The notes beneath the pieces are model-generated. The model saw only the letters and a program-made list of their open reading frames with translations, did not search any database and was not told the DNA's origin. The position numbers and the translations under genes were made by a program. Positions 14,762 through 31,454 of a stretch of DNA of 32,963 bases are shown here, in pieces. The DNA is from Gemmatimonadota bacterium (GTDB taxonomy: Bacteria > Gemmatimonadota > Gemmatimonadetes > Longimicrobiales > RSA9). Each line of letters opens with the position of its first letter. The first letter of the stretch is position 1. Where the stretch lies: assembly GCA_017881445.1 (NCBI GenBank), contig JADGQX010000020.1, positions 1 to 32,963 of the forward strand. The letters are read 5' to 3'.

Positions 14762-17710
14762 TCACGCGGGCTTGCGGATGACGCCCTCACGCTTGCGGCC
14801 GTTCATCACGATGGTGAGGGGCCGGTCGAAGCGGAGGTGGCGCACGACGCCGAGTGTGGCCTGCTCGGGCTGCTGCGCCAGCCATTCCCAGTCCAGGGCG
14901 CCCTCGCCCCGCTGCGGGTTGACGACGAAGTAGCCGATGCCGGAGGCGGAGAGGTTGTGGAAGAAGTGGCTGCCCTGGGACGGGGCGACGTGGAGGTCGG
15001 CGCGGCCGGCCTCGACGATGGCGCGGGCGCCGGCGATGTCGTCCCAGTTGACGGGGATGCCCATCTGGGGGTGGCTCGATCCCCAGCGGCCGACGCCGAC
15101 CAGGAGATAGGGGCGGCGCTCGCGCGCGAGCTGGGCATTGAAGCGGGCGATGTGACGGGCGGTCTGCGGGTTCAGGTAGGGGTTGAAGGAAGCGGCGTCG
15201 ATGACGACGACGTCGCACACGTCCTCGATCCGTCCGTTGCCCAGGACCATGGTACTGCGGCAGACGAGGTCGTCCGGGTCGAATCGGCCGGTATCGACCG
15301 CCTCGAGCTCGCGGAGTGCGGCCAGCGGGCGGAGCTGGAGCAGCGCGAATTGGGCCGGCTCGCCGGCGGGCGGCTCGAGGTTGACGGCGAACTCGATCTC
15401 GACGGGCGAGTTGGTGGTGCGCATGCCCAGCTGGAGCAGCTCGCGCAGGATCTCGGCGACGGGGAACACGCCGTGCTTGAGCACGGGTGCGAAGGTGACC
15501 AGGCGGGCGCCGTCGCGGCCGATGCCGTCGTAGAGGGCGTTGTTCTCGCGCGAGTAGGTCGAGGCGACGGGGCCGAGGGTGCCGTCGGCCTCGGCGACGT
15601 CCAGCGCCAGGCGGACGACGGCGTCGAGCCGGTCGTCGTCCGGGCGGGAGAGGTCGATCGCATAGAATTCGCGCTGCGTGTTCCGGAGTGCCTCGAGTGG
15701 GTCGGTGAGCTCTGGCAGGTGCCGGGGGAACGCGGGCGAGAAGCGGACACAAGGACCATCCTCGACCACCATCTTGCCCAGGCCGAGTGCCACGGCGGCC
15801 ACGCCGTCATTGGCGGTGGCCGGCGCCAGCGGGTAGAAGTTGTGGGAGCGGGCGACGCCGGCGAAGCTGGGATAGAAGTGGGTGCCGTGGCGGGCGCCGA
15901 CCACCGGCTGGAGGACCACGGCCATGCGCGCCTCCTCCATGCGGTAGGGCGTCGCCTCCAGCAGGCGCCGGGCGCCACCGGAGAAAGCCGAGGCGTAAAC
16001 GTCCTTGATGGCGGTCTCGAGCTGGGCCAACCTGGTCGCCGGGTCGGCGGCGGCATTGGGCAGCATGCGGGTCTCGAAGATCCCGGCGAAGGGCTCGTAG
16101 GGCGAGTCCTCGAGCAGGCTGGAGGAACGGACCGCCAGCGGGGCGTGCACCGTGTCCAGGAACCGCTCCAGCTCGCGGCGCACGGCCTGGGGCAGGGGCG
16201 CCTGGCGGAACAGCCCGGCGCGGGCGGTATCGTCGTCCAGGTCCAGCGCCGCCTCGCGCAGGCGATTGGCATCCAGGAAGCCGTCGAAGACTTCCGTCGC
16301 GAGCACCACCGCGGGCGGCACGAGCACGCGCACGCCCCGGAAGCGCTCCCCGATGCGGAAGCGGTCGAGCATGCGGGCCGCGAAGGCGAGCCCGCGGGCC
16401 TTGCCGCCCAGGGAGCCGCCCCCGATGCGCGCAATGCCGCCGTGGGCACTGAACGCCCGCGGCTGGAAGTCGGCGACGGTGCCGCGGGCCCGCTCGCGGC
16501 GGCTCATCTCGATGGAGTGGACCAGCTCCCGGCGGAGCTGCTCCAGGTCGCCGAAGTCCGAGATCCGGCGCGGTCGCAGCCCGCGGGCGAGGTGGAACTC
16601 CGCGCGGACGCGCAGCCAGCGGGAGAAGTCGTTGCGCACGCCGTGGAAGGCGAGGCATTCCACGGGGACTTCGCCGATGAGGCGCACCAGGTCGTCGATG
16701 TTGGCCGCCCGGTCGATCTCTCGACCGTCCTGCGTGCGGAAGACGAAGTCGCCGAAGGCGAAAGCGTCCTTGAGCTGCTCCCGCAGCCGCTGCAGCAGGT
16801 GGGGCGAGCGCTTGGGCAGGAACACCGCGCCAATGCTGGCGGCGACGCGCTCGTTCTCGGCGTGGCTCGAATGCAGGGCGATGGTCACGTCCGGCCGGGC
16901 CTCGCGGATGAGCCGGGCCAGCTCGAGGCCCGCCTCGGGGGAGCGCTGCCCCCCGCGCGGGAACTCCACGTCCGAGATCACGCCCAGCACGTCGTCGGGG
17001 TAGGCCTCGAACCAGGCCTGCGCCTGCTCGAAGCTGGTCGCCAGCAGGATCTTGGGCCGCGCGCGCAGGCGCAGGATCCGCTCCGCCAGGTTCAGCCCCT
17101 CGGACGTGACCTGCTGCGAATGCCGCTCCACCTCGTCGTAGATCACTGGCAGGAACGACGAGTAGTTGCGGATGTTGTCCTCGACCACCAGCAGGATGGG
17201 CACGCCCGCTTTGGCGTCGTGGGCCACGTTGCGCTCGTCCTCCACGCCCTTCACGATGGCGAGCAGGATGCGCGCATCGCCCTGCCAGAGGAAGCTGCGG
17301 TGGATCGCGGACTGGTCCCCGCGCGACAGCACGTCCTTGAGCGCGCCGTAGTCGTAGGCCAGCAGCACCACGGGCAGGCCCGGCGCCAGCTCGCCCACCG
17401 CGGTGGCCAGCGCCAGGGCATCCATGTCCCCGGCGTTGAGCGCGGTCAGCACCATGTCGAAGTGCCGCCCGGCGCGCAGCAGGGCCAGCGCCTCGCCCCC
17501 GGTCGCAACTTGATGCAGGGTAGGGACTTGTAGCTGGTTGATGTCCTGGAACTTCGCCCGCACCACGTCGCCCAGCTCGTCCTCCGCCAGGATGAACGAG
17601 TCGTAGAGGCTCGAGACGAAGAGCACGTCCCGGACCTGGTCGCGCATCAGGTCCTGGAAGCCGTTTTCCGGGCCGGGGTGCTCGGGCGCGGGGGCGGGGC
17701 TAGTGCTCAT
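14762..17710 (-). CDS. Hybrid protein: two REC-like domains plus PEP-synthase-type ATP-binding domain (PPDK_N)
   Basis: A 982-residue protein. Residues about 28-160 form a degenerate receiver-like domain. Residues about 170-315 form a fuller one, PILLVVEDN with acidic Glu177/Asp178, phosphoacceptor-like Asp247 (ISDVEFP) and Lys300 (FLPKRSP). After a linker, GGGSLGGKARGLAFAARM (431 on) and AVRSSSLLEDSPYEPFAGIF (526 on) are the ATP-grasp nucleotide-binding motifs of pyruvate phosphate dikinase and PEP synthase. The swivelling phospho-His domain (GGxTSHAA) and the C-terminal PEP-binding barrel are absent. Instead the end has GRWGSSHPQMGIPV (874 on) and SQGSHFFHNL (911 on), conserved in this uncharacterised family as I recall it. 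It is probably a cytosolic phosphotransferase or sensor-coupled ATP-using enzyme; the reaction is unknown. The start at 17710 leaves out an unlikely repeat-encoded extension. Confidence 0.85.
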   Translation of the reverse strand: MSTSPAPAPEHPGPENGFQDLMRDQVRDVLFVSSLYDSFILAEDELGDVVRAKFQDINQLQVPTLHQVATGGEALALLRAGRHFDMVLTALNAGDMDALALATAVGELAPGLPVVLLAYDYGALKDVLSRGDQSAIHRSFLWQGDARILLAIVKGVEDERNVAHDAKAGVPILLVVEDNIRNYSSFLPVIYDEVERHSQQVTSEGLNLAERILRLRARPKILLATSFEQAQAWFEAYPDDVLGVISDVEFPRGGQRSPEAGLELARLIREARPDVTIALHSSHAENERVAASIGAVFLPKRSPHLLQRLREQLKDAFAFGDFVFRTQDGREIDRAANIDDLVRLIGEVPVECLAFHGVRNDFSRWLRVRAEFHLARGLRPRRISDFGDLEQLRRELVHSIEMSRRERARGTVADFQPRAFSAHGGIARIGGGSLGGKARGLAFAARMLDRFRIGERFRGVRVLVPPAVVLATEVFDGFLDANRLREAALDLDDDTARAGLFRQAPLPQAVRRELERFLDTVHAPLAVRSSSLLEDSPYEPFAGIFETRMLPNAAADPATRLAQLETAIKDVYASAFSGGARRLLEATPYRMEEARMAVVLQPVVGARHGTHFYPSFAGVARSHNFYPLAPATANDGVAAVALGLGKMVVEDGPCVRFSPAFPRHLPELTDPLEALRNTQREFYAIDLSRPDDDRLDAVVRLALDVAEADGTLGPVASTYSRENNALYDGIGRDGARLVTFAPVLKHGVFPVAEILRELLQLGMRTTNSPVEIEFAVNLEPPAGEPAQFALLQLRPLAALRELEAVDTGRFDPDDLVCRSTMVLGNGRIEDVCDVVVIDAASFNPYLNPQTARHIARFNAQLARERRPYLLVGVGRWGSSHPQMGIPVNWDDIAGARAIVEAGRADLHVAPSQGSHFFHNLSASGIGYFVVNPQRGEGALDWEWLAQQPEQATLGVVRHLRFDRPLTIVMNGRKREGVIRKPA

Positions 17711-17734
17711 CGGGTGTGTGGGACCTCGAAGATG

Positions 17735-17834
17735 ATGGGGAGATGGGGCGATGGGGAGATGGGGCGACGATGCGACCGGCGGTACACGGTGACCCCGACC
17801 GGTCCGGCTCGCCCCATCCCCCCATCCCCCCATC
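17735..17834. repeat. ATGGGG-type octamer array with an inverted partner
   Basis: Bases 17735-17766 are four alternating octamers, ATGGGGAG and ATGGGGCG, each twice. Bases 17811-17834 read GCCCCATCCC CCCATCCCCC CATC in register, the same motif on the opposite strand. The two could pair into a long hairpin. The array lies in the 192-nt gap between gdhA and the REC-PPDK_N gene, both on the minus strand, so it falls in the leader region of the latter. Confidence 0.75.
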
Positions 17835-24115: not shown

Positions 24116-25354
24116 ATGGCCTCGTTCCGCTCCGTTTTCATCGCGGTGATCATCGCCACGGCCCTGCTCGTGGCGGCCCTGCTGATCCAGGCCCGGCGCC
24201 CGCGGGTGGAGGTGGTGCAGGCGCGGCCGGAGGCGGTGCGCGCGACGGGGAAATGCGCGTCCTGCCACCGGGCGGAAACGGCGGCGATCGTCCAGGAATA
24301 CGAGCTGAGCCGGCACGCGGCGGTGGGCACCACCTGCCTGGACTGCCATGGTGCCGCGGAAGGGCAGGAGAAGTACGAGCACCGCGGGTTCGTGCTGTCG
24401 AAGGAAGTGACGGCAAAGAACTGCACGCAGTGCCATGCCCGGGAGTACGAGGAGTTCCTGCGCAGCCGGCACGCCGCGCCGGCCTACGCGGCGATCCTGG
24501 GCCCCGGGTCCTTCACTCCCGAGCAGGTCGCGTTCTCCGAGCAGTACAACCCCGGCGCGGTCAAGAGGCCGGCCCATCCGCTGACGGGGCTCGAGGGGCC
24601 CGCGGCTGTGGCCTCCGGCTGCATTTCCTGCCACTCGGTGGGCAAGCCCAACAAGGACGGTTCCATCGGCGCCTGCACCGCGTGCCACACGCGCCACCGT
24701 TCGTCCGTGGCGCTGGCGCGGCTGCCGGAGACGTGCGGCCAGTGTCACATGGGCCCGGACCATTCGCAGCTGGAGATTTACCGCGAGTCCAAGCACGGCA
24801 TCATGTTCAACGCCTTCCGGGGCGAGATGAACCTGGATGCGAAGCCCAACGCGCTGCAGGTGGCCGACATGCCGGTGCCGACCTGCGCGACCTGCCACAT
24901 GAGCGGGCTGGGCGGCGGCCCGCCCACGCACAACCCCGGCGTCCGCCTCTCCTATTACCTGTTCGCGGAGATCACGCAGAAGCGCGCCACCTACCAGCAG
25001 GGGCGGGACGCCATGACCGCCGTCTGTGCCAACTGTCACGCCTCGGCGCACATCAAGCGCTTCTTCGCCGATGCCGAGAGCGTGGTGACGAGCGTGAACT
25101 CGCGCGTGCAGGAGGCGAAGACGCTCATGGATGGTCTGCGCGCCCGCGGACTGCTCACTCCCACCGCCCTGGACGAGCCGATCGAGTACACGTACTTCGA
25201 CTTCTGGCACTACTACGGCCGCACCGCCAAGCACGGCGCCTTCATGGGCGGCGCCGACTTCGTGCAGTGGCACGGCAACTACGAGCTGGTGAAGGGGTTG
25301 GTGGAGCTTAAGGCGCAGGCCGCCGGGCTGCAGGCGCCCGCCGGCGCGCACTGA
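24116..25354 (+). CDS. Membrane-anchored octaheme cytochrome c, hydroxylamine oxidoreductase (HAO) family
   Basis: A 412-residue protein with exactly eight CxxCH haem motifs: CASCH 47, CLDCH 74, CTQCH 103, CISCH 169, CTACH 187, CGQCH 207, CATCH 257 and CANCH 304. An uncleaved-looking N-terminal helix (VFIAVIIATALLVAALLI) anchors it facing the periplasm. Haem spacing and the C-terminal segment HGAFMGGADFVQWHGNYE match HAO-type octaheme enzymes. Relatives oxidise hydroxylamine or hydrazine, or run in reverse as hydroxylamine or nitrite reductases. Four Tyr residues follow haem 8 (358, 360, 366, 367), but whether one makes the cross-link to the catalytic haem cannot be seen. AGGA lies 5 nt before the ATG. 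The next gene starts 4 nt after the stop and is surely co-transcribed. Confidence 0.88.
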   Translation: MASFRSVFIAVIIATALLVAALLIQARRPRVEVVQARPEAVRATGKCASCHRAETAAIVQEYELSRHAAVGTTCLDCHGAAEGQEKYEHRGFVLSKEVTAKNCTQCHAREYEEFLRSRHAAPAYAAILGPGSFTPEQVAFSEQYNPGAVKRPAHPLTGLEGPAAVASGCISCHSVGKPNKDGSIGACTACHTRHRSSVALARLPETCGQCHMGPDHSQLEIYRESKHGIMFNAFRGEMNLDAKPNALQVADMPVPTCATCHMSGLGGGPPTHNPGVRLSYYLFAEITQKRATYQQGRDAMTAVCANCHASAHIKRFFADAESVVTSVNSRVQEAKTLMDGLRARGLLTPTALDEPIEYTYFDFWHYYGRTAKHGAFMGGADFVQWHGNYELVKGLVELKAQAAGLQAPAGAH

Positions 25355-25358
25355 GCCC

Positions 25359-26189
25359 ATGCGCATTCCCGGCCGGCCACTGCTGCTCGAGCTCTTCGCC
25401 ACGTCCAACCTGGCGTTCCTGGCGCTGGACGTGAGCCTCGCCCATTCGGCCAACGCGTTTGGCGCACCGCTGGAGTGGGTGCCCGTGGCGGCATCCGCCG
25501 GCTGCACCCTGGCTCTCGTCATCGGGCTCGGCGCCGCCCGCGAGCTGCGGCGCGGCGCCGGGTGGTGGATCGGCATGATCGTCGGCGGGGCCGCGCTCCT
25601 CGTCGGCATTGCCGGGATGGTGCTCCACCTCGAGAGCCAGTTCTTCCAGACGCTCACCCTGCGCGGGCTGGTCTACTCCGCGCCCTTCGTCGCCCCGCTG
25701 GCGTACGCGGGACTGGGCATGATCCTGCTGCTGAACCGGATGGTGCCGGGCGAGTCGATCGAATGGGGGCAGTGGCTGCTGCTGCTGGCGCTGGGCGGCT
25801 TCGCCGGCAACTTCGTGCTCTCCCTGGCCGACCACGCCCAGAACGGCTTCTTCAATCCGCTGGAATGGACCGCCGTGGCAGCCAGTGCCCTGGCGGTCGG
25901 GTTCTTTACCGTGGCGGTGGTCCGGCCGCGCGGCCGGCCGCTCTACGTGTCACTGCTCGTCGTGCTGGTCCTGCAGGCGACGACGGGCGTGCTCGGCTTC
26001 GTGCTCCACCTCCGCCATCTGCTCGACCCTACCATCGCCAACCTGGGCGACCGGGTCCTTTACGGCGCTCCCCCTTTCGCGCCGCTGCTTTTCGCCGACC
26101 TGGCGCTGCTGGGCGCGCTGGGAGTGTGGGATCTGAAGGCGAAGGGAATGTTCGAGGAGTCGGAATCGGTGGAGAATCCCGCGGAATAG
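25359..26189 (+). CDS. Internally duplicated eight-helix membrane protein partnered with the octaheme cytochrome
   Basis: A 276-residue protein with about eight hydrophobic helices (near 10-28, 40-60, 69-90, 104-125, 138-157, 168-188, 195-216, 234-256). It is two copies of a four-helix unit offset by about 130 residues. Residues 29-40 and 159-170 share H-x2-N-x-F-x2-P-L-E-W; VLHLES (88 on) matches VLHLRH (215 on); VYSAPFVAPL (105 on) matches LYGAPPFAPL. Two His per unit (29 and 90; 159 and 217) lie at ends of helices predicted to open on the same face, which could ligate haem b or form a quinone site. I recognise no named family. There is no ribosome site of its own; translation is likely coupled to the cytochrome. 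A membrane electron-transfer partner is the best guess. Confidence 0.75.
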   Translation: MRIPGRPLLLELFATSNLAFLALDVSLAHSANAFGAPLEWVPVAASAGCTLALVIGLGAARELRRGAGWWIGMIVGGAALLVGIAGMVLHLESQFFQTLTLRGLVYSAPFVAPLAYAGLGMILLLNRMVPGESIEWGQWLLLLALGGFAGNFVLSLADHAQNGFFNPLEWTAVAASALAVGFFTVAVVRPRGRPLYVSLLVVLVLQATTGVLGFVLHLRHLLDPTIANLGDRVLYGAPPFAPLLFADLALLGALGVWDLKAKGMFEESESVENPAE

Positions 26190-26278: not shown

Positions 26279-26716
26279 CTACCTCCGGAGCACCACGATC
26301 TGGCCCCACATCATCGGCATGTGCCTGGGGACGACGCAGTAGAAGGGGTAGATGCCGGGGCGGCGGGCCACCCAGGTCGCGCTGATCGTGCTCTGGCCCG
26401 GCAGCCTCAGCGCCAGGTCCGGCAGCACGAAGTTGTGCTCGTCGTCCTCGGGGTTCACCAGGCGCAGGCGCAGCGTGTCGCCCTGGAGCACCGTGATGGA
26501 CGACGGCACGAAGGCGTAGACCTCCTTGTCCGCCAGCACGCCACCGGGCGCGAAGTCCTGCTTCAGGAAGGGATAGACCGCGGCCATCTCCTTCGTGAGC
26601 AGCGGCACGGCCGTGATGACCACGTCACGGGAGCGGGCGCGCGAATCGGTGCGCTGGCTGCCGCTCACGGAGCAGCCGGCGAGGAACAACAGGAGCGGAA
26701 GCGCGTGACGGAGCAT
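26279..26716 (-). CDS. Cupredoxin-domain lipoprotein
   Basis: A 145-residue protein. The lipoprotein signal ends in LAGC (Cys15), so it is probably membrane-tethered in the periplasm. The rest is one cupredoxin fold: ITVLQGDTLRLRLVN, EHNFVLPD with His94, and the ligand loop YCVVPRHMPMMWGQ with Cys127, His132 and a Met at 135 or 136. That is the type 1 copper ligand order, though the Met is one residue closer to His than in the usual C-x4-H-x4-M loop. A small blue-copper electron carrier is likely. It converges on the octaheme operon with 89 nt between, so it is adjacent but not co-transcribed. GGGGA lies upstream of the ATG. Confidence 0.85.
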   Translation of the reverse strand: MLRHALPLLLFLAGCSVSGSQRTDSRARSRDVVITAVPLLTKEMAAVYPFLKQDFAPGGVLADKEVYAFVPSSITVLQGDTLRLRLVNPEDDEHNFVLPDLALRLPGQSTISATWVARRPGIYPFYCVVPRHMPMMWGQIVVLRR

Positions 26717-26869: not shown

Positions 26870-29605
26870 CTACCGCCCGAACCAGTAGCTCACTTTCAGC
26901 TGCAAGATGTTGTCGGCGTGCTGGCGGAAGACCGCACCGACGTCACGGCCCAGACTGAAATCGCCGAACGACTCATTGCCGGCGCGGGTCTGCTGCCAGA
27001 CCAGGAAGATGGTCGAGCCGGGACGCCACTCCCAGCGCAGCACCGCGTTCCCGCGCAGGGAGCGCACGTTGAAGTCCGGGTTGCCGAAGCTGAACTGGTC
27101 GCAGTTGGAGAACAGGCAGTACGTCGTGGGCTGGCCGGCGGCGTCGCGCGTGACCGACAGCTGGGTCGCGTCGAAGACGTGGGTCTCCAGCGTGCGCGGC
27201 CGGACGTACTCCTTGAAGCGGGAATAGGCGCCCGTGGCCACGAAGGGCTGGGCGTAGAGTTCCAGGGTGAGATTGGGCGTGAACGTGGCGCTGAGGCGCG
27301 TATCGAGGGAGATCGTGTTCTGCCTCAGGTCGGCGAAAACCACGCGCCGGCCGTAGAACGACGTCGCCGTGGGGTCCGTGAAGCTGGTGACGTACTGCGT
27401 CGTCCCCTCGCCGTGGCTGAAGCTGGGCGTCAGGTCGATGACCAGGTTGGAGGCCGCGCGCAGCCGCACCTCGAGGTTGAGGTCGTAGCTGTGCGTGCCG
27501 TCGTCGGCCCAGTTGTAGTCGGGGTGCAGGCCGAGCATGACCGGCTTGCGGCCGTCCGTGTTGATGTTGCTGAAGAGCATGTGCCAGCCCGGCTGGCGCA
27601 CGACCGGGCCGCCACGGGTGGCGCGGTCGTCGGCCCAGGATGGTTTCACGATCGCGAAGACGTTGACGTTCCAGTAGTTCGGCGTCTGGGTCTCGGCGTA
27701 CGCCTGGAACTGACCGTCGGTGCGGTCGCCCTCGAAGTTGTACTCCTGCTGGCCGCCCGCGATCAGCGCGACCTCGCGGTACCAGCGGGTCGGCTTGCTC
27801 CAGTAGGCAAAGAGGTTGGCGTTCTGCCAGATGTAGTCGCCCCGGCTGAGGAAGCCGAGGTCGTTCACCTCGAAGCCCGGTGAGCGGAAATTGACCGCCG
27901 TCTCCCAGCGCAGGATGCCCTGCTCCTTGGCCACGCGCGTGTAGCCTCCGATCCCTCGCAGCGCCGTGGCGGTCGGGTCGAAGGCGTCGCTGAACAGGCC
28001 GTTGCCGTGGTCGCCCCGGTCCGGCCGCTGGAAGTAGCGCGCGGGCGCTCGCTGGAGCAGGGCCATGGCGCTGTCGCTCCCGGAGACGTTCGAGACCACG
28101 AAGTTGGCCATCATGTGGTACATCTGGGACTTCCAGGTGGCGTCCAGGTCGGCGCCCACGGCTTCGGCGTGCCCCGGCAGCAGGTTCGTGAGCTGGGGAT
28201 CGTTCAGCTCCCGGACCACCGACGTGCCCATGGCGCCCAGGCGCACGCTGCCGCCGGCCAGGTTCTTCTTCACCCGCCCCACGAAATAGTTGGTGAACGG
28301 CTCGACCCGGGCCTGGCCCGGCAGACCGTTCGCGCCGATGTAGCGCATGTCCGCGGTCGACGTGGTGGCGTCCAGCAGCCCGACCTGGAGTCCGGACGCG
28401 GTCCGGCCCGTGACCTTGGCGGCGCCCAGGATGGTCGTGTTCTCCGGCTGCTCGACGTGCAGCGCGTCGTCCGGCGCGGAGCCGTGCGGCGGCCGGCCGA
28501 TGCGGCGCGAGTAGAAGAGCGACATGCCGGATACGTTGCTGCAGAAGTAGCAGTTGAGGCCGCCGAAATCGAAGAGGCCGCTGCCTTCGACGAAGAACGG
28601 TCGCTTCTCCTGGAAGAAAGTCTCGAAGGCGGAGAGGTTCACCACGGCGGGGTCCGCCTCCACCTGCCCGAAGTCCGGGTTGATGGTGGCATCCAGCGTG
28701 AGCGTGGAGGTGAGCAGCGCCTTCACGTCGGCGCCGGCGCGCCAGGCATAGTCGCGGGCATGCTCGTAAGGCGAGGTCGGGTCCCCGGGGCGCACGAAAG
28801 AGGCGCGGCTGACGGCGTAGGGCATCAGCTCGAAGCCGCGCGGCCGGCTGGCCATGCGCAGCCCCTCCAGGTGCCCGAAGCGCGGCGGACCGCCCTGCTC
28901 GTTCTTGCGCCAGAAGGCCCACATCGAGGTCTCGTTGGCCCGCTCCTCGTAGCGCCAGACCTGCATGCCCCAGGTCTGGAGCGAGTCCTTGGGGAAGCGG
29001 AGCTGCGACCAGGGGATGCGCATCTCGGACGTCCAGCCCAGGGAATCGACCGAGGTGGCCACGTCCCAGATCGGGTCCCAGGACATGTCCATGTTCGGTG
29101 CCGCCTGGCCCATGTCCATCTTCGAGCCCGCCGGGTTCACCTGCAGCCAGGTGCGGCCGGCGTGGTCGTGGAACGTATCGAAGACGAACGCGATGTAATC
29201 GCCATCGCTCTGCTGGTCCCGCCGCACCAGGCGCCCGTGCACCCCGGCGCGACCGGCCGTGTCGTACATGCGGGCGCCGATGTAGAGGGCGTCGTCGTCG
29301 TAGAGGAAGCGCACCTCCGTGCGCTGCGTCGCCGGCTGGCCCTCGTTCGGGTCCTGCTGGGTGAACTCGGTGGCGACGGGTGCGGCCTGCCAGGCGGCTT
29401 CGTCCAGCCGCCCGTCCAGCGTGACGGGCGTCTGCCGCGGCATGGCGCGGGCCTCGGGCCGCGCCTCGCGATGCCCGGGCGGGAGGCCGAGCGCGGGCAG
29501 GCCGCCGTTCGAGGTCGCGCCCTGCCCCAGCGCGGGGCGGGCGAGGGCCAGCATGGGCAGGACGACGGCCAGCACGATCGAAGGGAACGGATGGTGGCGG
29601 CGCAT
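26870..29605 (-). CDS. DUF5916 protein with N-terminal CBM9-like domain and probable outer-membrane barrel
   Basis: A 911-residue exported protein. A signal peptide (PSIVLAVVLPMLALARPALG) supports the start at 29605. Residues about 50-230 are a carbohydrate-binding family 9-like domain: TPVTLDGRLDEAAWQAAP, TEVRFLYDDDALYIGARMYD and a SEMRIPWSQLRF strand. Then comes DATINPDFGQVEADPAVVNLSAFETFF with EKRPFFVEGSGLF, the signature of DUF5916. The remaining 450 residues alternate in beta-barrel fashion and end LQLKVSYWFGR, with a C-terminal aromatic pattern typical of outer membrane barrels. There is no TonB plug. This family is frequent in Gemmatimonadota and Bacteroidota; its function is not established. 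A Cys pair (GLNCYFCSN) could form a disulfide. Confidence 0.88.
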   Translation of the reverse strand: MRRHHPFPSIVLAVVLPMLALARPALGQGATSNGGLPALGLPPGHREARPEARAMPRQTPVTLDGRLDEAAWQAAPVATEFTQQDPNEGQPATQRTEVRFLYDDDALYIGARMYDTAGRAGVHGRLVRRDQQSDGDYIAFVFDTFHDHAGRTWLQVNPAGSKMDMGQAAPNMDMSWDPIWDVATSVDSLGWTSEMRIPWSQLRFPKDSLQTWGMQVWRYEERANETSMWAFWRKNEQGGPPRFGHLEGLRMASRPRGFELMPYAVSRASFVRPGDPTSPYEHARDYAWRAGADVKALLTSTLTLDATINPDFGQVEADPAVVNLSAFETFFQEKRPFFVEGSGLFDFGGLNCYFCSNVSGMSLFYSRRIGRPPHGSAPDDALHVEQPENTTILGAAKVTGRTASGLQVGLLDATTSTADMRYIGANGLPGQARVEPFTNYFVGRVKKNLAGGSVRLGAMGTSVVRELNDPQLTNLLPGHAEAVGADLDATWKSQMYHMMANFVVSNVSGSDSAMALLQRAPARYFQRPDRGDHGNGLFSDAFDPTATALRGIGGYTRVAKEQGILRWETAVNFRSPGFEVNDLGFLSRGDYIWQNANLFAYWSKPTRWYREVALIAGGQQEYNFEGDRTDGQFQAYAETQTPNYWNVNVFAIVKPSWADDRATRGGPVVRQPGWHMLFSNINTDGRKPVMLGLHPDYNWADDGTHSYDLNLEVRLRAASNLVIDLTPSFSHGEGTTQYVTSFTDPTATSFYGRRVVFADLRQNTISLDTRLSATFTPNLTLELYAQPFVATGAYSRFKEYVRPRTLETHVFDATQLSVTRDAAGQPTTYCLFSNCDQFSFGNPDFNVRSLRGNAVLRWEWRPGSTIFLVWQQTRAGNESFGDFSLGRDVGAVFRQHADNILQLKVSYWFGR

Positions 29606-29741
29606 GCCGATCCCGGGCGAAGGAGGGGAGCGGTGTGTCGATACGTGTTGCTTGGACGAGTCGAGTCGCCAGATGGTTGCATTCACGCATGGCCAAGGGT
29701 CGAATGCACGACTCCTGGCGCACGCCGCGGGCGCAGGGGAA

Positions 29742-31454
29742 CTAGGCGCGGCGCACGCGCAGGCTGCGCAGCCGGCCCATGAACGCGGCCAGCTCGTGCA
29801 GGCGGAAGGCCGCCAGCTCCCCCGTGGGCTCGCCCTGGAAGGCATCCAGCCCGCGCTCGGCCAGGGCCTGCATCACCAGCGCCAGGGCCTCGGGCAGCGT
29901 GCGCCGGCCATCCAGCGCCCCCCCGAGCGACCACGCCAGGGCGTGGGCCATCCCCCGCACCTGCGCCGGCTCCACGATCTGCTCCACCGCCGCCAGCGAG
30001 ACCTCCTCCGTGCCGAAGAGCAGGCGCTCCTCGGAGAACGCCTTCACGCTCACCGCCCGGGGTCCGCGGCTGGGGTCCATGGACTCGGGCACGGGCACGC
30101 GGGCGCCGATCGGGCGCCAGGCCGAGAGCTGCGGCCGGCGGCGGGTGGGCAGATCCAGGGCGATGCGGCGCGCAGCGGCGGTCACCTCCAGCGGCTGGAA
30201 CTCGCGCATGGCGATCACCGTGTCCGCCACGTCCAGGTAGTCGCCCGAGCCCCCCAGCACGAGCACGGTGGACACGCCCAGCTCGGCGTGCAGCTGCGCC
30301 GCCCGATCGATGAAGGGGGTGATCGGCTCCAGCGCGTCCGGCACCAGTGCCTGCATGCGAGCGTCCCGGATCAGCAGGTTGGTGGCGGAGGTGTCCTCGT
30401 CCAGCAGCAGGCAGGAAGCCCCCACCTCCAGCGCCTCGACGATGGCGGCGGCCTGGGAGGTGGAGCCGCTGGCGTTGGCGGTCACGAACGCCCGCGTGTC
30501 GCCGCCGCCCGGGAGCGCGCCCACGAAATTGGAGATGTCGCTGCCGGCCACGGCGCGACCGTCCTCCGCCCGCACCTTCACCGCATCCGGCACGCTCACC
30601 ACCCGCTCCCGTCCGTCGCCGGGGACGTGGTCGTAGACCCCGCGCTCGATGGCCTGCAGCAGCGTGGACTTGCCGTGGAACCCGCCGCCCACCACGAGCG
30701 TGACGCCTGCCGGGATCCCCATGCCGGCGACGTCGCCGGCGTTGGGGGCTTCCAGCACCACCCGCAGCGACTCCGGCGAGCGGAAGGGAACGGCGCGGTC
30801 CGCGGACAGGGGGCGATCGTCCACGCCGCTGCGGCGCGGCAGCGAGCTGCCATCGGCCACGAAGGCGACGAGGCCCCGCGCCTTCAGCTGCGACCGCAGC
30901 GCCCGGGCGTCCTCCACGACCTCGACGTGGCGCCGCAGCGCCGCCGGATCCAGGGAGTGATAGAGCAGGGCGCGGTGCACGGCCTCCGGCAGCGCGTGGC
31001 CGAGCAGGTCGGCGGCGGCGTGGCCCAGGACCGTGCGTCCACGGGCCGGCAGGCCGACGCGGAAGCGCGCTTCCACGCTCCCCTCGCCGTCCACGTGCAG
31101 GGCGCTGCGCTCGAGCACCTGCTGGCCCGGCTCGAGCACGCGCAGCTCGCCGCTGCGCCCCGAGCCGCGCTCCGCCGACAGGTCCAGCAGCGCTTCGTGA
31201 AAGGCGCGGTTCAGGAAATCGGCCGCAGCCACGCGCCGGGCCTCGGTCAGGGTGGCCCATTCCGGCAGGCGGGCCGAGTCCGCGGGCACGATCACCCGCA
31301 GCCGGCTGGCCTCGGCGAAGGGATCGCCCTGGACGTGGTCGACGACGAGGCGGAAGCCCCCGGCGGCGTACGAACCGCGGACCTCCCTGTAGGCGGGATA
31401 GCCCTGTCCGTCCAGGCGGCGAACCCGGTCGGTGAGGGCGACGAGCGTTTCCAT
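29742..31454 (-). CDS. Predicted ATPase of the ABC class (PF09818-like)
   Basis: A 570-residue protein. GGAG lies 5 nt before the ATG. The middle holds VVGGGFHGKSTLLQAI, a Walker A motif with the GxHGKST form of this family (about 254-269), an ABC-signature-like ASGSTSQAAAI (328-338) and CLLLDEDTSATNLLIRD, Walker B plus the following loop (348-364). A VLVLGGSGDYLDVADTVIAM segment gives the last strands. The N-terminal 250 residues are specific to the family. These proteins occur in bacteria, archaea and fungi as soluble ATPases without a transporter; their function is not known to me. The gene is isolated: 136 nt from the DUF5916 start, 135 nt from the next gene. Confidence 0.88.
   Translation of the reverse strand: METLVALTDRVRRLDGQGYPAYREVRGSYAAGGFRLVVDHVQGDPFAEASRLRVIVPADSARLPEWATLTEARRVAAADFLNRAFHEALLDLSAERGSGRSGELRVLEPGQQVLERSALHVDGEGSVEARFRVGLPARGRTVLGHAAADLLGHALPEAVHRALLYHSLDPAALRRHVEVVEDARALRSQLKARGLVAFVADGSSLPRRSGVDDRPLSADRAVPFRSPESLRVVLEAPNAGDVAGMGIPAGVTLVVGGGFHGKSTLLQAIERGVYDHVPGDGRERVVSVPDAVKVRAEDGRAVAGSDISNFVGALPGGGDTRAFVTANASGSTSQAAAIVEALEVGASCLLLDEDTSATNLLIRDARMQALVPDALEPITPFIDRAAQLHAELGVSTVLVLGGSGDYLDVADTVIAMREFQPLEVTAAARRIALDLPTRRRPQLSAWRPIGARVPVPESMDPSRGPRAVSVKAFSEERLLFGTEEVSLAAVEQIVEPAQVRGMAHALAWSLGGALDGRRTLPEALALVMQALAERGLDAFQGEPTGELAAFRLHELAAFMGRLRSLRVRRA

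Follow-up and report, generated by a model that had tools for sequence, protein, structure and literature searches.

In the reverse-HURM pathway of Nautilia profundicola, the octaheme HaoA works with CycB, a protein of the NapC/cM552 type, and with Hcp; the octaheme is proposed to convert nitrite to hydroxylamine, which Hcp then reduces to ammonium (PMC3701875). Caldithrix abyssi encodes an octaheme, epsilon-Hao (Cabys_2556), in a cluster similar to the cytochrome b/Rieske-octaheme-NapA clusters described below, and it is proposed to reduce nitrite to ammonia (PMC5317091). Octaheme HAO-like genes of Phycisphaerae (Planctomycetota) have been reported to encode putative nitrite reductases, possible substitutes where nirK/nirS are missing (PMC11266412). 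IhOCC of Ignicoccus hospitalis is membrane-associated by the title of a reference in PMC8840924. An eight-helix membrane protein as the partner of an octaheme was not described in the accessible portions of the open-licence literature.

The pair considered here lies in a window of 32,963 nucleotides (the whole stretch that was analyzed) from a Gemmatimonadota draft genome of 4.7 Mb in 420 contigs. The first gene (24116..25354, + strand) encodes an octaheme cytochrome c of 412 amino acids, and the second (25359..26189, + strand) encodes an unnamed eight-helix membrane protein of 276 amino acids. Both open reading frames start with ATG, and, as a preliminary description of the sequence had it, they are separated by 4 nucleotides (TGA GCCC ATG). 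That description also gave the octaheme eight CxxCH motifs, a membrane anchor, and an HAO-like C terminus, and all three were confirmed: the first cysteines of the motifs are residues 47, 74, 103, 169, 187, 207, 257, and 304, the structural model has a transmembrane helix at about residues 2 to 27, and the region around W364-Y389 can be aligned with IhOCC and other HAO-family proteins. The eight motifs together with a significant Pfam match (PF13447, 2.4e-29) and a place within a monophyletic clade assign the protein to the HAO/OCC family, and its catalytic part is predicted to be periplasmic.

Among solved structures, the nearest relative of the octaheme by sequence is IhOCC (4qo5, 1.6e-53), a chain of 521 amino acids versus 412 here, followed by HAO, anammox HAO-like proteins, and HDH. 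When structures were searched by fold with the AlphaFold model (pLDDT 83), solely members of the HAO family fell below an E value of 0.001, again led by IhOCC 4qo5 (E 3e-12), and since the model was built without haems its packing is poor and the overall superposition reaches a TM score of only about 0.4. Structures of NrfA, ONR, and MccA gave E values of 0.03 or more in the same search and thus no significant match. All eight motifs are CxxCH, the CxxCK catalytic haem motif by which NrfA/ONR membership would be recognized is absent from the octaheme, and the NCBIfam hydrazine dehydrogenase equivalog scored 83 bits against a cutoff of 900. The pair would share with NrfHA the layout of a two-gene, quinol-linked, periplasmic N-oxide reductase, as predicted, but NrfA is a pentaheme protein with no significant fold match to the octaheme, NrfH is a tetraheme protein of the NapC type, and neither was found in the source genome.

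Which way the octaheme works may be read from its active site. The fourth motif (CISCH, residues 169 to 173; 24620..24634, + strand) aligns with CTMCH of Nitrosomonas europaea HAO and is the equivalent of haem 4, the substrate haem, and the active-site residues Asp215-His216 of a GPDH motif (24758..24763, + strand) are invariant in 50/50 homologues. Residue 467 of the N. europaea HAO chain, the cross-linking tyrosine in GWTYTEGW, falls on His386 of the octaheme (25271..25273, + strand), and this position is histidine in all 50 homologues. Thus, the cross-linking tyrosine that marks oxidative HAO and hydrazine dehydrogenase (the P460 criterion) was found in none of them. A phylogeny of the family published in 2025 draws a similar line, with histidine at the key site of reductive enzymes and tyrosine at that of oxidative ones (PMC12758564). 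From His386 at the site of Tyr467 we predict an octaheme that lacks the P460 cross-link and works as a reductase. The site was located in two steps, through an HAO-like relative (L042) aligned both to N. europaea HAO and to the octaheme; of the grounds for the reductive prediction, this indirect alignment, made at low identity, is the weakest.

The preliminary description had allowed for either a reductase or an oxidase; the former is now favored, and the latter is disfavored because histidine replaces the cross-linking tyrosine. If the enzyme ran in the opposite direction, the octaheme would oxidize hydroxylamine (or hydrazine or NO) and the membrane protein would feed the quinone pool, as in nitrifiers. 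Membership in the HAO family is consistent with oxidation, as is a sister family of the membrane protein, considered below, that presumably delivers electrons from an oxidized substrate to the membrane. The substitution is invariant, however, and the neighbors of the pair are nitrate, nitrite, and NO reductases and Hcp, such that we give the oxidative direction little credence. In all, the octaheme itself is an ordinary HAO/OCC family protein that is predicted to be reductive.

What sets the locus apart is the company that the octaheme keeps. An alignment built from six close relatives of the membrane protein served to scan 84,980 named genomes, and the best 80 loci were taken; the scan used peptide seeds (DHAQNGFF and another) and therefore favored the near family. 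In 80/80 of these best relatives an octaheme lies directly upstream of the membrane gene: the octaheme gene, or a large part of it, is present on the same strand in 78, and the contig starts inside the octaheme in the other 2. The pair is kept at 42 to 64% identity across the 80 loci, well above what chance would give, and by record title these loci come from Planctomycetota, Poribacteria, Neomarinimicrobiota, Zixibacteria, Acidobacteriota, Verrucomicrobia, Gemmatimonadetes, Bacteroidetes and Roseithermus, Eisenbacteria, Hydrogenedentota, KSB1, Oligoflexales, and "Deltaproteobacteria." Thus, the unit spans about a dozen bacterial phyla. The association also holds when the octaheme is the starting point. 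Near octahemes (E value below 1e-100) occur in 8 of 395 Gemmatimonadota genomes and all 8 have the membrane protein, in one case (G150) with the locus split over two contig ends. Of the octahemes in 199 Planctomycetota genomes, the seven that score above 700 bits and an intermediate one at 536 bits are likewise all accompanied (8/8), whereas lower-scoring sister octahemes of the same phylum have the membrane protein in 0/22 loci.

The two genes also appear to have evolved together. In a tree, the 81 octahemes of the pairs form one monophyletic group (local support of 1.0), and pairwise distances of the octaheme correlate with those of the membrane protein (r = 0.75, with a permutation maximum of 0.16). 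We conclude that the octaheme and eight-helix genes are a fixed two-gene unit, and the preliminary suggestion that a conserved pairing would define a distinct octaheme subtype is borne out by the count and the tree. Most pairs have unrelated neighbors, and thus the unit moves as a cassette. With the membrane protein of the window as the query, no relatives were found on plasmids. Clustering of neighboring genes showed no conserved third gene beyond lineage-specific synteny. A cupredoxin gene of the window (26279-26716, - strand; PF13473), convergent with the pair, was also rejected as a third component, as a homologue is present in 0/80 loci. Its product is small and lipoprotein-like, is weakly similar to the C-terminal cupredoxin of NosZ, and has a single cysteine in FYCVVPRHMPM that suggests a mono-copper site.

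Neither Pfam, NCBIfam, nor the PDB gave a match to the sequence of the membrane protein, a Pfam search with 52 members of its family gave single weak matches at most and no family, and the best structural match in the PDB had an E value of 0.97. Known membrane quinol dehydrogenases (NrfD, NarI, cytochrome b, and NapC) resemble it in neither sequence nor fold, and it has no c-haem motif. The preliminary description had seen two four-helix repeats, and these proved real: AlphaFold (mean pLDDT of 90.5) places helices at residues 6-30, 37-59, 66-92, 108-128, 134-162, 167-188, 193-221, and 243-261, and the halves (about residues 1 to 132 and 133 to 276) are homologous to one another (hhalign probability of 98.4, E 4.6e-15). 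Exactly four histidines are invariant in 52/52 members, two per half, and in just one further column does histidine have a majority (29/52). These are His29 at the end of TM1 (25443..25445), His90 at the end of TM3 (25626..25628), His159 at the end of TM5 (25833..25835), and His217 at the end of TM7 (26007..26009), all on the + strand, and the repeat pairs His29 with His159 and His90 with His217.

Lysine and arginine are commoner in the N terminus, loops 2, 4, and 6, and the C terminus (about 1.5 to 2.0 per sequence) than in loops 1, 3, 5, and 7 (0.04 to 1.0). By the positive-inside bias, the protein would have its N terminus in the cytoplasm and its four histidines at the periplasmic ends of TM1, TM3, TM5, and TM7. 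Two histidines on alternate helices of a four-helix bundle, occurring twice, is the pattern that two b-type haems would be expected to give. Thus the eight-helix protein is probably, to judge from its residues, a redox subunit with two b haems that links to quinone, but the four histidines could instead hold a metal or serve the structure. The exchange of electrons with quinone that the preliminary description proposed is in the same way well motivated, both by the predicted periplasmic-side histidines and by sister octahemes that have a cytochrome b or Rieske protein in the same place.

Distant relatives of the membrane protein serve elsewhere. In one Gemmatimonadota genome (G035) such a homologue adjoins genes for a gluconate 2-dehydrogenase subunit 3-like protein and a GMC-like oxidoreductase, as judged by eye, and by the records' annotation the trio recurs on plasmids of Deinococcus, Nitrobacter, Burkholderia, Komagataeibacter, Croceicoccus, and Methylocystis, where the membrane gene is annotated "hypothetical protein" (e.g., WP_015231207.1). 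Both partner genes were beside the membrane gene in 7/7 loci of this sister family. The plasmid gene set (L131-L136 and L019) consists of a TPP enzyme, an enolase-like protein, the eight-helix homologue, gluconate 2-dehydrogenase subunit 3, and the GMC oxidoreductase, and the latter two proteins start without an obvious export signal. An inverted topology of the sister family was considered and rejected, as charge counts did not show one. The octaheme-paired and GMC-associated branches are homologous over 229 columns (hhalign probability of 97.4, E 1e-11) at about 25% identity, and the same four histidines are invariant in both. The GMC operon protein thus resembles the protein of the pair in descent and in histidines but accompanies a flavin dehydrogenase rather than an octaheme. 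The preliminary claim that the membrane protein is tied to octahemes therefore stands for the near family, which is always paired, and fails for the superfamily; homologues found mostly without octaheme neighbors, which that description had named as evidence against itself, were not seen in the near family. With the same four histidines and GMC neighbors, the superfamily appears to follow redox enzymes, and a membrane protein that keeps its four histidines alongside two redox enzymes unrelated to each other is most simply an electron-transferring subunit.

Sister octahemes point the same way. The closest are more than 50% identical to the paired octaheme around haems 4 to 7 and are longer, mostly about 480 to 550 amino acids. 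Many of them adjoin genes for a cytochrome b (PF13631/PF00033), a Rieske protein, or a molybdopterin enzyme of the NapA type, and clusters of cytochrome b/Rieske, octaheme, and NapA are common in Gemmatimonadota and Planctomycetota. As in the pair, a membrane protein adjoins the octaheme in these clusters, quinol oxidizing there and predicted to be so here, but the octaheme is longer, the neighbors are cytochrome b/Rieske and NapA, and the eight-helix protein is missing. Because the sisters belong to the same family and phyla and go with cytochrome b, the eight-helix protein may take the place of the cytochrome b quinol oxidase.

The preliminary description held that no known carrier accompanies the octaheme and that one conserved elsewhere in the genome would count against its proposal. 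Such a carrier was not found: NapC/NrfH (PF03264) is missing from 33 of 34 pair-bearing genomes, the Gemmatimonadota source genome included, and NrfA (PF02335) is absent from 34/34 beyond short haem-motif matches (best, 28.6 bits over 61 positions), Escherichia coli being positive as the control in both searches. These counts cover pair-bearing genomes, drafts that may be incomplete or mis-binned. Alternatively, the membrane protein might be an anchor, a maturation factor, or a channel for substrate or product, with electrons reaching the octaheme through alternative complex III or a soluble cytochrome. Its want of any match to a haem or quinone protein would fit such a role, and as the octaheme is already anchored, a second anchor would be redundant and a channel or factor is possible. 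Against this are four invariant histidines that are two-fold symmetric and common to a family serving a different redox enzyme, and the cytochrome b that sister octahemes have at the same genetic position. We consider a role outside electron transfer unlikely, if worth keeping in mind.

The substrate may be suggested by the neighbors of the pair. In two Gemmatimonadota genera, narGHJI and two narK genes lie beside it, narG being confirmed by profile. In three Verrucomicrobia, hcp is about 25 nucleotides upstream on the same strand, and a quinol-type NO reductase (qNOR) gene is directly downstream in two Verrucomicrobia and less than 1 kb away in one Planctomycetales genome. One Verrucomicrobia genome (G412) has two copies of the pair, with qNOR beside one (L108) and, beside the other (L171, 3074-5165), a NirK cluster with NnrS-like, DUF2249-like, and Crp-like genes, the minor names being assigned by eye. 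Finally, a deltaproteobacterium has, in order, a NapA-like gene, the pair, NirK, and a COX1-family NO reductase-like gene. Thus, N-oxide genes adjoin the pair in four phyla and support a nitrogen role. They are missing from the vicinity of most of the 80 loci, however, and with NarG in 6, NirK-like genes in 9, qNOR in 5, and Hcp in 3 of the 34 pair-bearing genomes, we rejected qNOR, Hcp, and NarG as obligate partners. Some of the hosts are probably aerobes.

Perhaps, then, the pair is a quinol-linked reductase of something else, such as sulfite, tetrathionate, peroxide, or an organic compound, and the nitrogen genes share only its anoxic regulation. Octaheme reductases are promiscuous, and the octaheme nitrite reductase also reduces sulfite (PMC8840924); moreover, NarG and NirK are absent from most host genomes, and the neighbors at many loci are unrelated. 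Nonetheless, where a functional neighbor turns up again in an independent phylum it is an N-oxide gene, and qNOR would be expected by chance about 0.03 times in 1.23 Mb of loci (an estimate based on 5/34 genomes of about 5 Mb) and was seen three times, twice in related genomes. We therefore regard another substrate as rather improbable and favor an N-oxide. By profile search the source genome has NirK and none of NarG, qNOR, or Hcp, and thus either nitrite or the NO that NirK produces could be the substrate here. The window also encodes a glutamate dehydrogenase (PF00208/PF02812; 17909-19513, - strand), an enzyme that handles ammonium and whose gene is about 4.6 kb away from that of the octaheme. 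Further from the subject are a protein of 1023 amino acids that unusually combines a pyruvate phosphate dikinase ATP-binding domain with a weak response regulator-like region (14765-17833, - strand) and a DUF5916/CBM9-like protein of 991 amino acids (26870-29845, - strand).

We think it reasonably probable that the pair is a self-contained, two-subunit, quinol-linked N-oxide reductase that resembles reverse-HURM but has a new protein for electron entry. The eight-helix protein would span the cytoplasmic membrane, its four histidines lying close to the periplasmic side, and each four-helix half would most likely hold one b-type haem through two of them. It would take electrons from (mena)quinol and pass them to the membrane-anchored octaheme, with which it may form a physical complex. 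At haem 4 the octaheme would then reduce nitrite, NO, or hydroxylamine to hydroxylamine and/or ammonium. Like reverse-HURM, the pair would have a quinol-linked octaheme of the HAO family that lacks the cross-linking tyrosine and for which reduction of nitrite to hydroxylamine is proposed, and Hcp, the partner there, is encoded just upstream in the three Verrucomicrobia loci. Reverse-HURM uses a tetraheme quinol dehydrogenase of the NapC type, however, and the pair has an unrelated eight-helix protein that lacks a c-haem motif. We conclude that the pair belongs neither to reverse-HURM nor to NrfHA, although it would work like them, because the defining NapC-type partner was looked for and is absent.

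The octaheme family is itself known, and what is new is the membrane partner and the fixed pairing. The pair looks like an undescribed wiring of a nitrite, NO, or hydroxylamine reductase to respiration. We speculate further, and hold both parts together only tentatively and a little short of even confidence, that the membrane proteins form a new superfamily of di-haem b quinone oxidoreductases, built from a duplicated four-helix unit and docking on unrelated redox enzymes (the octaheme N-oxide reductase and the GMC dehydrogenase) and that the octaheme branch is a widespread, unrecognized route of nitrite, NO, or hydroxylamine reduction in about a dozen phyla, within genomes devoid of NrfA. As a fixed unit of two genes, the pair makes the link of the octaheme to respiration directly testable in Planctomycetota and other phyla, and knowledge of it would let the genomes that carry it be annotated correctly. 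Ultimately, a family of membrane proteins without a known structure may prove to be a new kind of quinone oxidoreductase.
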